DNA of 64,000 bases from an uncultured Kordiimonas sp. (lineage in GTDB: Bacteria > Pseudomonadota > Alphaproteobacteria > Sphingomonadales > Kordiimonadaceae). The translations under genes were made by a program, and so were the position numbers. Positions 22,313 through 28,641 of this stretch are shown here, one piece after another. Location: assembly GCA_947503625.1 (NCBI GenBank), contig CANNEK010000002.1:682001-746000 (forward strand). The letters run 5' to 3'. The notes under the pieces are model-generated. The model was not told the origin of the DNA, made no database searches, and saw nothing but the letters and a program-made list of their open reading frames with translations. How positions within the stretch are numbered: position 1 is the stretch's first letter; each line of letters begins with the position of its first letter.

Positions 22313-23269
22313 CTATTCCATCAGAGAAACAGCAAAATAACCTTTTTCATCCGTCCATGTTTGCTTGATCGACCATCCGGCACGCGCAGCAAGTTCGGCG
22401 AAACCATCAAGTCGAAATTTTCGTGAGTTTTCTGTGTGGATCGTTTCATTCATACGAAAATCGAATCGATCACCATTAACGGCGACCGTCTGGTTTTTTG
22501 TACTCACCAGATGCATTTCGATCCGGCCGTCGTGCTCGTTCCAGCGAGCTTCATGACTGAAGCAGTCAAGATCAAAACCGCCGTCAAGCTCTCGGTTGAT
22601 GCGCGACAGCAGGTTCAGGTTAAAGGCTGCGGTTACGCCAGCCGCATCATCATAGGCCGGGACCAGAATGTCCTCACTTTTTACCAGGTCGAAACCGATC
22701 AGAAATTTTCCGGTGAGCCCCAACGTTGACCGCACAGCGCCGAGAAACGTCTCGATCTCTGAATCCAGCAGGTTGCCAATGGTTGAACCCGGGAAAAACG
22801 CGAGCCGGTTGCCGGGTGGCAATGCCGTTGTAGACAGGCCGTCGGCATTCATGAAGTCGGCAACAACAGGAATGACCTCAACAGATGGGTAGTCAGTCGC
22901 CAGTCTTGCCATCGAACTTGCCAGAAAGTCAGCCGATATATCTATCGCCACGTAACTCTTTGGCTGGTTCAGGGCGTCAAGCAGCAACCTCGTTTTGGTG
23001 CCAGCCCCGGCACCAAACTCCATTACGTGCGCGGACGTACCAACTGCCTTGGCCATATCCGGCAGATGATTTTGGAAGATGCTGATTTCAGTGCGTGTAG
23101 GGTAATATTCGGGCAGGTCTGTGATCTGCTCAAAAAGTTCCGAGCCCTGTTGGTCGTATAGCCATCTGCACGGCAGTGTTTTCTGTGATTTTGACAAGCC
23201 TTCCACAACGTCGGCGTAAAACGCCTTTGTATGGTTTTTGCTTTCATGTAACTGGTCGTCTCCGCGCAT
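22313..23269 (-). CDS. egtD: L-histidine N-alpha-methyltransferase (ergothioneine biosynthesis)
   Basis: EgtD trimethylates histidine to hercynine with SAM, the first step of ergothioneine synthesis. The 318-residue product starts at ATG 23269, overlapping the egtB stop as TGATG. Upstream in-frame starts would lie inside egtB. Features are the family opening CRWLYDQQGSELFEQITDLPEYYPTRTE (given here in part), the SAM motif VMEFGAGAGTKTRLLL, and the acidic residue before YVAIDIS. The length equals that of mycobacterial EgtD. It is coupled to egtB; egtA, egtC and egtE are not present in the window. Confidence 0.94.
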   Translation of the reverse strand: MRGDDQLHESKNHTKAFYADVVEGLSKSQKTLPCRWLYDQQGSELFEQITDLPEYYPTRTEISIFQNHLPDMAKAVGTSAHVMEFGAGAGTKTRLLLDALNQPKSYVAIDISADFLASSMARLATDYPSVEVIPVVADFMNADGLSTTALPPGNRLAFFPGSTIGNLLDSEIETFLGAVRSTLGLTGKFLIGFDLVKSEDILVPAYDDAAGVTAAFNLNLLSRINRELDGGFDLDCFSHEARWNEHDGRIEMHLVSTKNQTVAVNGDRFDFRMNETIHTENSRKFRLDGFAELAARAGWSIKQTWTDEKGYFAVSLME

Positions 23270-24543
23270 CAGATATCCTCCGCGAGCCGCAGCCCGGAAA
23301 ACTGCCATCGCTTTTCAGGCTGGAAAAAATTGCGATAGCTGGCGCGCAGATGCCCTTCCGGGCTCGCGCACGAGCCACCTTTCAGAACCATCTGTCCGCT
23401 CATGAATTTGCCGTTATACTCCCCAACGGCACCCTCTTGAGGGCGGAAGCCGGGGTATGGCAGGAAAGCGCTGGCAGTCCATTCCCATACATCGCCAAAC
23501 ATGCCTGTCAGGCTGTTGTCGGCCCCTTTTTGCGGGCGCGGGCGTAACCGCCCTGTACCTGCCAAATTCCCGGTAACAGGAAGGTCGCTGGCTGCGTGTT
23601 CCCACTCTGTTTCGGTTGGCAGCCGTTTACCTGCCCACGTTGCATAGGCGTCCGCTTCATAGAAACTGATGTGGGTCACCGGGGCGTCAAGGTCAACGGG
23701 CTGATAGCCTCGTAACGTCATGCTGAACCAGTCGTCGCCTTCGCGCGCCCAATAGAGAGGGCATTGCCAGCCTTCTTCGCGTGCGGCCGCGATACCGTCA
23801 GCCAGCCAGAAAACCGGATTTTCGTATCCGCCGTCTATCATGAAGGCGATCCACTCCCGATTGGTAACGGCGCGGTTTGCAAGCTTGAAGGGCCGCAACA
23901 ACACGTCGTGCGCCGGTGTTTCGCAGTCAAAGGCAAAACTATCGCCTTTATGACCGACCCGGACTATCGCATCCGCAAATTCTGTCCAGCCTGCGGCAGC
24001 TTGCGGTGCGTTATCCACCGCTAGTGGCTCGCTCTCGCGCAATGCCGGCTTCACGGGGTTTTGGGCAAACAGGTGCAGAATATCGGTCAGCAACAGTTCC
24101 TGATGTTGCATCTCGTGCTGTAACCCAAGCTCAATCAGGGCGAGGATGTCTGCGCCGGGACTCTCGCTCAGCAGGCTCCCCATGCCTTTGTCGACATGTG
24201 TCCTGTAGGCTTTAACTTCATCGAGTGTCGGGCGGGTCAACAGGCCGCGATCCGGCCGCGGGAAGCGTGCGCCAACCTGCTCATAGTAGGAATTGAACAG
24301 ATAGGGGAACACTTCAGAAAAAAGGGCATACTCTTTCAAGCGCGGGACAAGCAAAAATGTTTCAAAAAACCAGCTGGTATGTGCCAGATGCCACTTGGCA
24401 GGGCTGGCGTCTTCCATGGACTGCACCGTTGCGTCTGCGTCAGACAAGCCCACGACGAGGGCGTCTGTATTGCCACGAACCAGATGAAAGGCGTCATGAG
24501 GTGTTTTGGAAAAGAAACAGTCTTTTTTGTCCGCGGTACGCAT
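23269..24543 (-). CDS. egtB: Ergothioneine sulfoxide synthase EgtB
   Basis: EgtB is a non-haem iron enzyme that joins hercynine to a thiol donor (gamma-Glu-Cys or cysteine) with oxygen. ATG 24543 has AAGGA upstream and gives 424 residues. The N-terminal DinB-like domain supplies likely iron ligands in [12 protein letters not shown] (His52/His55) and [12 protein letters not shown] (His143, His147). The C-terminal FGE-sulfatase domain (about 195-424) contains [27 protein letters not shown] and [11 protein letters not shown]. The donor thiol cannot be settled here. The gene is 171 bases downstream of an amidohydrolase gene and coupled to egtD. Confidence 0.94.
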
Positions 24544-24714
24544 AAAATTCCTTATCGGCACTATAAGGCTGATCGGTTCTGCTCGTCCAGATGGTTCCGG
24601 ACATTTGTTTCGATCATGTTACCGACGGGCCAACCTTAGCGCGCGGCTCGTTTTTAGAGAAGGGGTTAGCAGCCATGAACCGCACTCTCCTGACAAGACC
24701 TGGCAGTAGGGTGA

Positions 24715-26082
24715 TCAGAAAGCGCGTCCGAGGGCCTTCAGACTTTCTGTTTCATACTTGGGGTCGTACCAGACCTGGCCATCCTTGATCGTGACCGCGA
24801 CATAGTCCAGCAGGTTGATATCCGCAAGCGGGTCGCCATCAACGATGACGATGTCCGCGAGTTTGCCTTCTTCCAGGGTGCCAAGGTCGTTGCTGCGGCC
24901 AATTATTTCAGCACCGGTTTTTGTGGCTGCCGTAATCGCGCGCGCCGGTGTCATACCGCTATCAACAAGGGCCGACATCTCGCGCCAGATGGCTTCTGTA
25001 TGGAAATTCAGCGGGCTTGCCGCGTCCGTGCCCACACCCATATAGGCATTTGCATCAATGAACTGACGCGCGTTTATTTTTGAGAAGCGGATTTCATCCG
25101 GCGTATCCTTGAAATAGGAAAGTGCCCGAAAGTTCTTGAAACTGCGCTGCATTTCGGCGAACACGTCAGCACCCATGTCTGCTTCAAGCTCCGGTGTGTT
25201 CAGCCGGCCGGGGTTTTTTCCTGTAGCAGGATAGAGCCATATCCGGTGCGCGATGGTTTGCACCACCGGTATTCTGTCTTCGGCAATTTTCCGGATCAGG
25301 TCTTCAGGGTATGGCGGCATCTTGGCGCTGCCAACGTGCTGCAATACATCCACACCCGCAGCGATCGCATCGCGCATGGCAGGGACCTTGTAGAGGTGAG
25401 AGTGTACTTTAACGCCCCGGCTGTGGGCTGCTTTCACTACTGCTTTCAGGTCGTCGCGTGTGAGGCCCAGCCAGGTTTTGATGACATCAGACCCGGTATC
25501 TATCAGTTCCAGAGTTCTGGCTGCTGCTTCTTCCGGGCTACTGATAACGATCTGGTAGCTGTCGGGCACGCCGTCCAGCTTGATGCGGGTAATCCAGGGG
25601 CCGGAGATGACAAGCCGGGGGCCAGGAATTTCACCGGACCGGATGCGTTCGCGAACCTCCAGAATGTCAAACGGGCTGCCAAGATCAACACCTGTTGTCA
25701 CACCGGCGCGCATCATATGTTTTGCGGCAATGGGCATAACTTCTGGCAGGCGTCGGGTGCCGCCGAGAAACTCATAATATTCATCATAGTCTCCATGCCC
25801 GATAAGATCGAGATGGATGTGCAGGTCGATCAGGCCCGGCAAGACTGTCTTGCCGCGCGCGTCGATCACAGGGGTACCGTCTGGTATCACAACTTCATGT
25901 GCAGGGCCGGCAGCAATGATGCGGTTACCTTCAACCAGAATAGTTGCATTGTGAACGGGTGGGGCCTCGTAACCGTCCACCATCATCCCACCAACGATGG
26001 CATACGTTCTAGGGGCTTCCTGAGCCGCAGCAGGTAACAAACCAGCCGCGAAAACCGCAAGAGCGAGAAAGAGTCGGGTCAT
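24715..26082 (-). CDS. Secreted amidohydrolase-family protein (imidazolonepropionase-like)
   Basis: ATG 26082 gives a 455-residue protein with a signal peptide (1-20, cleavage near AAA-QEAP). The longer frame would add 45 unlike residues. The amidohydrolase barrel shows the metal motif DLHIHLD (His88, His90), a second-shell VKVHSHLYK, VLQHVGSAKM and the late Asp in GVGTDAASPLN. The C-terminal GTLEEGKLADIVIVDGDPL is typical of the imidazolonepropionase-like/prolidase group. It hydrolyses an unknown periplasmic amide or peptide. It follows the three DUF6445-like genes by 31 bases, probably in the same transcript. A larger relative lies at 55784-59128. Confidence 0.87.
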   Translation of the reverse strand: MTRLFLALAVFAAGLLPAAAQEAPRTYAIVGGMMVDGYEAPPVHNATILVEGNRIIAAGPAHEVVIPDGTPVIDARGKTVLPGLIDLHIHLDLIGHGDYDEYYEFLGGTRRLPEVMPIAAKHMMRAGVTTGVDLGSPFDILEVRERIRSGEIPGPRLVISGPWITRIKLDGVPDSYQIVISSPEEAAARTLELIDTGSDVIKTWLGLTRDDLKAVVKAAHSRGVKVHSHLYKVPAMRDAIAAGVDVLQHVGSAKMPPYPEDLIRKIAEDRIPVVQTIAHRIWLYPATGKNPGRLNTPELEADMGADVFAEMQRSFKNFRALSYFKDTPDEIRFSKINARQFIDANAYMGVGTDAASPLNFHTEAIWREMSALVDSGMTPARAITAATKTGAEIIGRSNDLGTLEEGKLADIVIVDGDPLADINLLDYVAVTIKDGQVWYDPKYETESLKALGRAF

Positions 26083-26113: not shown

Positions 26114-26746
26114 CTATTCCGGGTATGCCATCTTTGTGGCGTCCGGATAATTATAGGCGCAGACATAAATAAGCCGACCATTTTCCGGCTTGGTGCCAAA
26201 GCTGATGCCCGCATCATGATATTGTTGTGGTTTGATAATCAACAACCGGTTGTAGCGCATGGGTACGGTCATAAGGTGTTCCCAGGCATCAGGGTCATTG
26301 GTGTTTTTGTTGATGACGCCATCAAGGAACTCTTGCTGGCTGGCAAAGCCCATTTCCGCGAGCTCCATCGAATTGTAGGGAGCGCGGTCAGTTCCTGTCG
26401 CCTTGTGACGAAACAGGTGCGTACCATCCTGGCAGTGTTCCGGTAATGTAAGATACAGGATCGTGGTCCAGTGCACATTGTCGATATGCACACTTTCTGT
26501 GCCTTTGTCGCCATCAAGCGCCAACCTGAAATGTGCGTGCGATGACGTCGGAACCGGCGTTACGGGTTCACCAATTATCTCGGCGATTTTTTCATCATAA
26601 CCGTTAATTATCTGACGATACTTGCTGTCTCTGCCCGGATAAAACTGCGGTGTCTCCGGCACCGGATAGTCCTGCGCCAGTGCGGCATTCCTGAGAGCAT
26701 GCGGGTCCTTGAGGAAATCGTCAACAACAATGACTGACTGGATCAT
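26114..26746 (-). CDS. DUF6445-like putative Fe(II)/2-oxoglutarate oxygenase, copy 3
   Basis: ATG 26746 gives MIQSVIVVDDF, matching the starts of the two neighbouring paralogs, and a 210-residue protein. It aligns without gaps to them over about 195 residues. His87-x-Asp89 (VHIDNVHW), His177 (YHDAG) and Arg191 (NGRL) are spaced like the metal triad and co-substrate Arg of double-stranded beta-helix 2OG oxygenases. The DUF6445 name is from memory of the pattern FLxDPxxLRxxALAQxYP. The copy differs from the others by a longer tail. It lies 101 bases after copy 2 and 31 bases before the amidohydrolase gene. Confidence 0.75.
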   Translation of the reverse strand: MIQSVIVVDDFLKDPHALRNAALAQDYPVPETPQFYPGRDSKYRQIINGYDEKIAEIIGEPVTPVPTSSHAHFRLALDGDKGTESVHIDNVHWTTILYLTLPEHCQDGTHLFRHKATGTDRAPYNSMELAEMGFASQQEFLDGVINKNTNDPDAWEHLMTVPMRYNRLLIIKPQQYHDAGISFGTKPENGRLIYVCAYNYPDATKMAYPE

Positions 26747-26847
26747 ACTGATACTTGTGTCCCTACCCGCGTTACCATGGACCTCAAGTATGAAAGGGCC
26801 CGGGCAGCAGGTCAAGCGCGGCTGCAAGACTTCCAGTATTCAGTTGG

Positions 26848-27447
26848 CTAGAAGTATGTGGTCAGATAGACAAGCCGACCGTTTTGTGGGCTATCGCCAA
26901 AACTGACGCCTGCGTCATGGTACTGCTGTGGCCGGATAATCAGCAGTCGATTGTAGCGCATGGGTACGGTCATCAGGAGTTCCCATGCATCAGGGTTGTT
27001 GGTGTTCCTGTCCAGCACGTTGCTCATGAAAGCTTCCTTGCTGGTAAACCCCATCGCTGCCAGTTCCTGTTCGTTATAAGGCGCATGGTCGGTGCCGGTC
27101 TCTTTGTGGCGAAATAAATGGGTACCGTCACGGCAATGCTCGGGCAGGGTCAAATAGAGGATCGCTGTCCAGTTTACCGGGTCGATATGAACTCCGTCTC
27201 TGCCTTTATCCCCCTCAAGCGCCAGCCGAAATTTCGCATGAGAGGGCGCGCCGGCAGGCTCTACAGTTTCGCCGACTATCTCGGCAATTTTCTGATCGAA
27301 ACCGTTGATAATCTGGCGGTGGCGGCTGTCGCGGCCGGGATAGTTCTGCACACCTTCCGGCTCCGGATATTCCTGCGCAAGGGCTGCCGCCCGCAAGGTA
27401 TCCGGATCGTTCAGAAAATCATCAATAATGAATAGAGATTTTTTCAT
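26848..27447 (-). CDS. DUF6445-like putative Fe(II)/2-oxoglutarate oxygenase, copy 2
   Basis: This 199-residue product, closest by eye to copy 3, keeps His87/Asp89 (VHIDPVNW), His177 and Arg191 at identical positions, plus the shared GTHLFRH segment. The start is only five bases after the copy 1 stop, and no Shine-Dalgarno is visible, so translation probably depends on coupling to copy 1. There is no signal peptide or TM helix, so it should be cytosolic. Substrate unknown. The 2OG-oxygenase assignment is inference from residue spacing. Confidence 0.75.
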   Translation of the reverse strand: MKKSLFIIDDFLNDPDTLRAAALAQEYPEPEGVQNYPGRDSRHRQIINGFDQKIAEIVGETVEPAGAPSHAKFRLALEGDKGRDGVHIDPVNWTAILYLTLPEHCRDGTHLFRHKETGTDHAPYNEQELAAMGFTSKEAFMSNVLDRNTNNPDAWELLMTVPMRYNRLLIIRPQQYHDAGVSFGDSPQNGRLVYLTTYF

Positions 27448-27452
27448 ACGGT

Positions 27453-28064
27453 TCAGGCGTTTGCATGATTGTAGAAGCTCAGGTAAACAAGCCGTCCGTT
27501 TTCCGGACTATCGCCAAAACTGATGCCTGCGTCGTGCCAGTGCTGGGGCCGCATCAACAGCATCCGGTTGAACCGCATGGGTACTGTCATGATCTTTTCC
27601 CATTTGCTCGGATCGTTTGACTGGCTGTTGACCGTCTTGTCCAGAAGTTCCTGTTCGGTTTCCGCGCCGAATATTGCATACTCGTGCCTGAAATAGGGTG
27701 CGCGGTCTGTACCGGTTGGAATGTGCCGGAAAAAGTGCGTGCCGTCCTGACAGTGTTCTGGCAGAGTCAGGAACAATATTGCCGTCCAGTGGGCGTTATC
27801 AACATGAACGCTGTCCGTGCCTTTTTCGCCTTCGAGAGCCAGGCGAAACTTGGCGTAAGAGGTTCCTTCTGCAGGCACCAGTGGCTCACCAACAATTTCC
27901 GAGATTTTCCTGTCCAGGCCCTTGATGATTTGGCGGTGACGTGAGTTACGCCCGGGGAATGGTGGCAGTTTGTCATACTCAGGGTACTCCTGCGCAAGCG
28001 CAAGCTCCCTGAGCTGATGTGGGTCGTTCAGAAAGTCATCAATAATGATAAAGGATTTCATCAT
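27453..28064 (-). CDS. DUF6445-like putative Fe(II)/2-oxoglutarate oxygenase, copy 1
   Basis: This is the first gene of the triplet in transcription order, 203 residues. His87/Asp89 (VHVDNAHW), His177 (WHDAG) and Arg191 (NGRLVYL) align exactly with the other copies. It is the most divergent copy, with DKLPPFPGRNSRH at about 31-43 and HFFRHIPTG at about 110-118. Two adjacent ATG codons (28064 and 28061) are possible starts. The gap to the GNAT gene upstream is 69 bases on the same strand, so all five genes from 28589 down to 24715 may form one operon. Confidence 0.75.
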   Translation of the reverse strand: MMKSFIIIDDFLNDPHQLRELALAQEYPEYDKLPPFPGRNSRHRQIIKGLDRKISEIVGEPLVPAEGTSYAKFRLALEGEKGTDSVHVDNAHWTAILFLTLPEHCQDGTHFFRHIPTGTDRAPYFRHEYAIFGAETEQELLDKTVNSQSNDPSKWEKIMTVPMRFNRMLLMRPQHWHDAGISFGDSPENGRLVYLSFYNHANA

Positions 28065-28133: not shown

Positions 28134-28589
28134 TTAAGCCAATGAAAGTTCCATAACAACCATGGTGATAGAAGGATCGTTTAATTTGGGACCGCGTTTT
28201 ATCTCCCGAAAACCAAGGGACTGATATACGTGGCGGGCACGGGCGTTATCTTCATAGACATCAAGCCAAATAGTATGGGCCCCTTCATCCCGAAACTGCT
28301 TGATTACCGCCTGCATAAACTCGGAACCGATGCCGTCGTCGCGGCGGGCTACAACTACACGGCGCCATTCGATATGGCCCGGTCCGGTTTCGACGAGAAT
28401 CGCGAAGCCAAGCGCGGTACCCTGCAGGCCTTCCGCAATCAGATAATGGATCGACGGATCAGCCATATTTTTTGTGTGGGTCTCGTTGTCCCAGCTATGA
28501 ACAAAAATATTGGCCGGGTCCATCTCCAGTGATCGTATAAAAAATACGTCGTTTGGCGTTGCCTTGCGCAGCCTGCAAAAGCGAGACAT
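28134..28589 (-). CDS. GNAT-family N-acetyltransferase
   Basis: The 151-residue protein starting at 28589 shows the GNAT fold: an N-terminal LRKATPNDVFFIRSLE, strand beta-4 IEWRRVVVARR, then the acetyl-CoA loop in a RRDDGIGSEFMQAV form (Q/RxxGxG/A), and the C-terminal WLDVYEDNARARHVYQSLGF typical of RimI-like enzymes. The substrate is unknown. It is divergent from the HIT gene and upstream of the DUF6445-like triplet. Confidence 0.88.
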   Translation of the reverse strand: MSRFCRLRKATPNDVFFIRSLEMDPANIFVHSWDNETHTKNMADPSIHYLIAEGLQGTALGFAILVETGPGHIEWRRVVVARRDDGIGSEFMQAVIKQFRDEGAHTIWLDVYEDNARARHVYQSLGFREIKRGPKLNDPSITMVVMELSLA

Positions 28590-28641
28590 AGTATCCCCAA
28601 AATTGAATTCTCGTTCCAAAAACGGAAGAGTCAAAAACAGT

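Follow-up and report, generated by a model that had tools for sequence, protein, structure and literature searches.

On the minus strand of the window (the whole stretch of 64,000 nucleotides analysed here), three neighbouring genes encode similar proteins of the family DUF6445 (PF20043), raising the question of which reaction these proteins may catalyse and why three of them are kept side by side. They had been described in the original prediction as tandem, gap-free paralogues of a putative Fe(II)/2-oxoglutarate (2OG) oxygenase, with a secreted amidohydrolase encoded closely behind them.

The array and its neighbours

The first gene of the array, copy C (27453..28064, minus strand, 203 amino acids, putative Fe(II)/2OG oxygenase), is followed by copy B (26848..27447, minus strand, 199 amino acids) and copy A (26114..26746, minus strand, 210 amino acids), transcription running in the order C, B, A downwards from 28064 to 26114. 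With 60.1, 56.7 and 59.7 bits, respectively, all three exceed the curated PF20043 cut-off of 24 bits, and no NCBIfam model reaches its own cut-off for any of them. For copy A we took the ATG at 26746 as start, where its alignment to C and B begins; the longest open reading frame begins with a TTG at 26827. The three-way alignment contains no gap over 199 columns, exhibiting 69% identity between A and B and 61% for A-C and B-C. The residues H87, D89, H177 and R191 are identical in the three copies, which bears out the description as gap-free paralogues. Counted from the start codon of copy C, they are encoded at 27804-27806, 27798-27800, 27534-27536 and 27492-27494, respectively, on the minus strand. 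A search of the Kordiimonas-like genome to which the window belongs revealed no fourth DUF6445 copy.

Copies C and B are separated by 5 bases (27448..27452, minus strand), and no Shine-Dalgarno-like stretch is seen by eye before copy B, just as had been noted. In the other four genomes with three copies this spacing amounts to 27, -4, -4 and -1 bases, i.e. the genes overlap by 1-4 bases in three of them. Such spacings fit a coupled translation of the array. The largest gap within the array operon of the window comprises 101 bases, and judged by these intergenic gaps the operon offers little space for a peptide precursor gene, which speaks against one.

The exported amidohydrolase (24715..26082, minus strand, 455 amino acids), which we take to be COG1228-like, begins 31 bases after copy A. 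Its N-terminus is hydrophobic and ends in an AAA-Q type site by eye, in agreement with the secreted enzyme expected at this place. The distance to copy A is 21-61 bases in 8/8 array genomes, and the motifs HxH, Lys, His, His and Asp, whose roles in such an enzyme we presume, are kept in 8/8 orthologues. These orthologues (82-88% identical) occur in 8 of 19 genomes of the genus, exactly those with the array, while the next-best matches in the genus are paralogues with 35-39% identity. The query also matches locus L065, but genome G004 has no match at 1e-60, and we therefore counted the L065 protein as a paralogue. Since the array genomes look like one RpoB clade (see below), the co-occurrence of array and amidohydrolase probably reflects one event and joint retention. 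The best solved relative is the arginine carboxypeptidase Cc2672 (3mtw, E 2e-34), which matches as do the prolidase-named entries 2p9b, 2qs8 and 3feq, with motifs in common. The NCBIfam model for Xaa-Pro dipeptidase gives 180.6 bits, far below its cut-off of 500.

Upstream, 69 bases before copy C, a GNAT acetyltransferase gene (28134..28592, minus strand) is located. It is not specific to the module, because it occupies the same place in the DUF6445-free genomes G005, G009 and G011. The flanking genes purH, HIT and GNAT are present without DUF6445 in G005, G008, G009 and G011 (no GNAT in G008); G001 and G012 have other genes after purH, and the contig of G007 ends there. In G002 the single DUF6445 gene is separated from the GNAT gene by one for a protein of 755 residues with RTX calcium-binding repeats (L062:8769-11033). 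No transporter gene was seen between copy C and the amidohydrolase.

The gene for an EgtB-like protein (23269..24561, minus strand; name inferred from DinB_2 and FGE-sulfatase), 153 bases after the amidohydrolase, probably lies outside the module. It is accompanied by the gene for an EgtD-like methyltransferase (22313..23308, minus strand; PF10017, histidine-specific). EgtD is found in 8/8 array genomes, in three of the four single-copy genomes and in none of the seven without DUF6445. It lies elsewhere in the three single-copy genomes; in G018 about 24 kb separate it from the array, and in G015 the two are on different contigs, so that the co-occurrence is explained more simply by a clade effect. 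We rejected the ergothioneine-type genes as members of the module, EgtD lying away from DUF6445 in several genomes.

Predicted fold and conserved residues

The AF2 model of copy C, built with 22 relatives, reached a pLDDT of 91.7 and a pTM of 0.88; that of copy B (91.0 and 0.87) has nearly the same secondary-structure elements. According to these confident models and the structure search with C, the proteins are predicted to adopt a double-stranded beta-helix, the fold set beforehand as the test of the oxygenase assignment. Comparing copy C to the PDB with Foldseek, the best 50 of 995 matches (E up to 10) all seemed, judged by their titles, to be of the Fe(II)/2OG type, with modest values (best E 5e-4, four matches with E up to 0.001). 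The small-molecule enzymes HalA, BesD, WelO5 and HygX stood high among the matches listed. VIA-align gave Z values of 11.9-13.6 among the 50 matches listed for copy C, with SnoN on top. These included OGFOD1, PHD2, Tpa1, PiuC, a few uncharacterised entries and prolyl hydroxylases of Pseudomonas (P. putida P4H), Trichoplax, Dictyostelium, Chlamydomonas and Chlorella virus, the PHD/P4H-type enzymes with a Z of about 13 being level with SnoN. Models and structure search place prolyl-hydroxylase-type enzymes among the nearest kin. The fold cannot tell protein from small-molecule substrates, because small-molecule enzymes rank high in Foldseek and SnoN tops VIA. Sequence searches of the PDB yielded no credible match, only chance-looking ones (PRDM9 zinc fingers, WbaP).

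The HxD...H facial triad (H87, D89, H177) is present in 66/66 DUF6445 rows (65 distinct sequences, L094 repeating L072). This also applies to R191, the basic residue at the start of the last core strand, which is predicted to bind the 2OG carboxylate. Over these rows only 8 of 203 positions never vary (G38, H87, D89, G108, T109, R167, H177, R191), the mean identity between the two branches of the family being about 19%. In the 43 rows from the branch of the array, H87, D89, H177, R191, G108, T109, H114, R167 and R74 are invariant. A second set of 23 PF20043 rows (11 of a halogenase-linked branch, 12 of the array's branch) again exhibits H87, D89, G108, T109, R167, H177 and R191 without variation, H114 being kept in 17/23 and R74 in 12/23. 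By simple arithmetic the chance of four pre-named positions all falling among the 8 of 203 is about 1e-6. As the four residues were named before counting and are all among the invariant positions, their conservation is not due to chance.

Direct profile comparison of the array's branch gave no match to PF13640 proteins (5.6%) or PF13759 proteins (1.5%). The other DUF6445 branch was linked at 61% (E 8e-5) to PF13640 proteins encoded in related genomes; HxD and Arg coincide in this alignment, and the second His is displaced by one column. The sets comprised 16/16 PF13640 loci and 9/16 PF13759 loci, the others having been dropped by a motif filter. Taken together, predicted fold, structural neighbours of the Fe(II)/2OG type and the four residues sustain the original assignment, and membership of the copies in the Fe(II)/2OG oxygenase class is well supported.

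Halogenases of the Fe(II)/2OG class have Gly or Ala instead of the metal-binding Asp. HalA, BesD and HalD rank high in the Foldseek list for copy C, but the array proteins possess Asp89. Because Asp89 is found in 66/66 family rows and halogenases have Gly there, halogenation is not expected.

Orthologous clades and the two branches of the family

Among 19 genomes of the genus, eight carry two or three DUF6445 copies, four carry one and seven none, absence being weak evidence in the case of G002, G007 and G009 (76-80% complete). In a tree of 43 proteins the array copies of the eight genomes fall into three clades, C (8 rows, 95/98), B (5 rows, 97/92) and A (8 rows, 97/89), A and B being sisters (100/98). 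L058 (a fragment) as well as L073 and L078 (other branch) were left out of this tree, and only 34% of the columns of copy B of G006 were kept after trimming. The tree exhibits no sign of gene conversion between the copies. Gene order is invariably C-(B)-A. A and C are kept in 8/8 array genomes, while G010, G015 and G016 lack B and have C and A adjacent to each other. The loss of B while A and C stay argues against an obligate three-part enzyme. Of the two interpretations offered originally, three related substrates would fit the three old orthologous clades, and a strictly processive or three-part modification is weakened by the absence of B in 3/8 array genomes.

Comparing the window to the four other triple genomes, B is 68% identical in each case, C 79-81% and A 77-84%. 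By this measure copy B evolves faster than A and C. Five pairs, each of A or of C, have a dS below 1.6, and their dN/dS of 0.018-0.057 shows purifying selection on A and C at the level of the coding sequence; dS of B is saturated. Seven positions (36, 70, 90, 92, 141, 149, 176) are fixed within each clade and differ between clades, and A and C differ by fixed residues at 15 positions. Positions 90, 92 and 176 adjoin the ligands in sequence, which is suggestive only.

In the RpoB tree (14 of the 19 genus genomes, midpoint root) seven array genomes form one group (100/99), apart from three genomes without DUF6445 and four with a single copy. Missing from this tree are G015 with the array as well as G001, G005, G007 and G009 without it. 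The purH gene of G003 groups with array-free genomes, its RpoB and its three DUF6445 copies with array genomes, which suggests recombination at purH beside the array in this genome. As purH and RpoB disagree on G003, purH was not used as a species tree.

DUF6445 is rare and was detected in 19/385 genomes sampled from the class and in 30/398 from the phylum (the samples overlap). In these samples adjacent copies occur in the genome of the window only; where another genome possesses two to four copies, these are distant from each other or located on separate contigs. Probable remnants of the gene were observed in G627 (L195, G627:C1:168171-168383, with in-frame stops) and in Erythrobacter fulvus (a shortened frame after dnaJ, L058:8001-8269).

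The two branches of the family differ in their genomic partners. In the other branch (29 loci), a tryptophan halogenase gene is situated within 1.5 kb in 16 loci and a TonB receptor gene in seven more; six of these 23 loci contain a SapC gene, too. None of the 48 loci of the array's branch contains any of these three (tblastn, 1e-6, same queries; 29 loci covered by 7-18 kb, 18 by 2-4 kb and the window by a slice of 12 kb), and 20 wider stretches (4-14 kb) surrounding 20 array-branch genes of other genomes were likewise negative with these queries. These searches are not exhaustive, since the queries missed a gene for a TonB plug situated about 0.8 kb from a remote member in G759 (L214). The halogenase lead of the original prediction is consequently not supported for the array's branch (0/48 loci) and fits the other branch (halogenase or TonB receptor gene in 23/29).

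Directly upstream of array-branch DUF6445 genes, dnaK and dnaJ are found in nine family loci and in G752 (L049-L056, L058; L192/L201). The nine loci comprise 8/8 from Erythrobacter/Porphyrobacter and one from another member of the Sphingomonadales (L050), with gaps to dnaJ of 5-40 bases (10 bases in L049), and eight of these copies cluster in a single clade (100/98). This arrangement indicates a possible operon link between a 2OG oxygenase and chaperones. In G652, G732, G748 and G776, belonging to the same order, neither dnaJ nor dnaK is present within 14 kb of DUF6445.

Outside these two groups the neighbours of the array's branch vary widely, most other loci having no common neighbour. An M1 peptidase gene lies beside DUF6445 in three loci of this branch (L067, L069, L057) and a gene for a beta-lactamase-fold protein in two; an M20 peptidase and an HslU-like AAA protein (name inferred) were seen beside one each.

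Probable function and related enzymes

The reading that we prefer, at a probability of roughly 0.6, is that the trio are specialised Fe(II)/2OG hydroxylases whose substrates are most likely proteins or peptides, A and C being permanent members of the set and B an optional one. The three copies would be cytosolic oxygenases with a prolyl-hydroxylase-like double-stranded beta-helix, in which His87, Asp89 and His177 would hold Fe(II) and Arg191 the carboxylate of 2-oxoglutarate, O2 being used to hydroxylate the substrate; the motif HxD, in place of the HxG of halogenases, would lead to hydroxylation. Two duplications may have preceded the divergence of the array-bearing species, the paralogues then being kept and specialised. 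They would be produced by coupled translation from one operon shared with the exported amidohydrolase and might belong to a common pathway with it. A and C would have separate lasting tasks, B an optional third one. Specialisation of the copies is reasonably supported. By analogy to PHD2, the Pseudomonas EF-Tu hydroxylase and OGFOD1/Tpa1, proteins or peptides are the most likely substrates, and a protein substrate is favoured because members of the same branch directly follow dnaJ in the nine loci and in G752. We also consider, as a speculative and rather unlikely extension, that the branch stands for a bacterial protein hydroxylation tied to protein quality control, the Kordiimonas paralogues having separate protein targets, so that chaperones, translation factors or their clients would bear a mark sensitive to both O2 and 2OG. 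This idea derives from dnaK-dnaJ in Erythrobacter/Porphyrobacter and from the hslU-like or peptidase genes adjoining elsewhere.

Alternatively it is possible, if somewhat doubtful, that the substrates to be hydroxylated are free amino acids, dipeptides or a related metabolite and that the operon is a catabolic or scavenging one, the periplasmic amidohydrolase freeing the metabolite from a conjugate before import. The amidohydrolase, with an orthologue in 8/8 array genomes and in 0/11 others of the genus and always 21-61 bases from the array, agrees with this, as do its solved relatives (arginine carboxypeptidase, prolidase-named entries), the M1 peptidase genes beside three DUF6445 loci and the amino-acid halogenases and hydroxylases among the top Foldseek matches listed. 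However, the joint presence probably goes back to one event, the seven array genomes tested being one RpoB clade; no transporter gene is seen between copy C and the amidohydrolase, and other members of the branch have neither this amidohydrolase nor a common catabolic context. A variant in which A, B and C act in turn on one peptide, later cleaved by the amidohydrolase, would make use of three genes on the same strand that overlap or nearly do so and of the catalytic residues common to them. We consider it highly improbable, since B is missing in three genomes in which A and C persist, the operon leaves little space for a gene encoding a precursor, and the oxygenases without and the amidohydrolase with a signal peptide (by eye) would be located in different compartments.

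The number of copies might also serve merely to raise the amount of one enzyme, the copies being interchangeable, as their 61-69% identity and common motif would allow. Three orthologous clades with no sign of conversion in the tree, the seven clade-fixed differences, the 15 between A and C and the faster evolution of B (68% vs 79-81% for C and 77-84% for A) make this improbable. Finally, proteins of the same fold could be sensors binding a metal or ligand, or structural parts, instead of enzymes. No paper naming DUF6445 or PF20043 was found in the literature searched, which accordingly documents no activity for the family; nor did the literature on halogenase/SapC/TonB and on Kordiimonas with 2-oxoglutarate contain an account of the array. 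Yet the full HxD...H...Arg set stays in 66/66 rows while nearly all else drifts, and we regard a non-enzymatic role as scarcely credible.

DUF6445, a family without described function, gains a testable enzyme class from this analysis and splits into two branches, each with different genomic partners. Related genomes with C-B-A, with C-A, with one copy and with none, several at the same chromosomal place, constitute a natural experiment. Few bacterial protein hydroxylations are known, with EF-Tu and ribosomal protein L16 named in passages of PMC7864055 and PMC4543633. Should the substrates be proteins, the array would add to these.

Among the closest known systems is the halogenase/TonB/SapC-linked branch, belonging to the same Pfam family PF20043 with the eight invariant residues in common and a profile probability of 99.2% (E 7e-20). 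It scores 196-271 bits on PF20043 (29 loci; L082 99.9) vs 57-60 bits for the array proteins. PHD2, the Pseudomonas PPHD, OGFOD1 and Tpa1 resemble copy C in the predicted fold (Z about 12-13.5) but are only 11-18% identical to it in structural alignments. The HX(D/E)...H triad and the fold of 2OG oxygenases are described in passages of PMC4543633, the loops of prolyl hydroxylases in passages of PMC7864055. In the model of copy C, H87 is predicted on an isolated bridge and D89 in the loop that follows; H177 ends the strand 175-177 and R191 begins the last strand (191-200). These strand positions agree with the layout given for OGFOD1 in the relevant passages of PMC4396695, in which His155 is located on strand II, Asp157 in a loop, His218 on strand VII and Arg230 at the 2OG analogue, the spacing from the second His to the Arg being 12 in OGFOD1 vs 14 in the array proteins.
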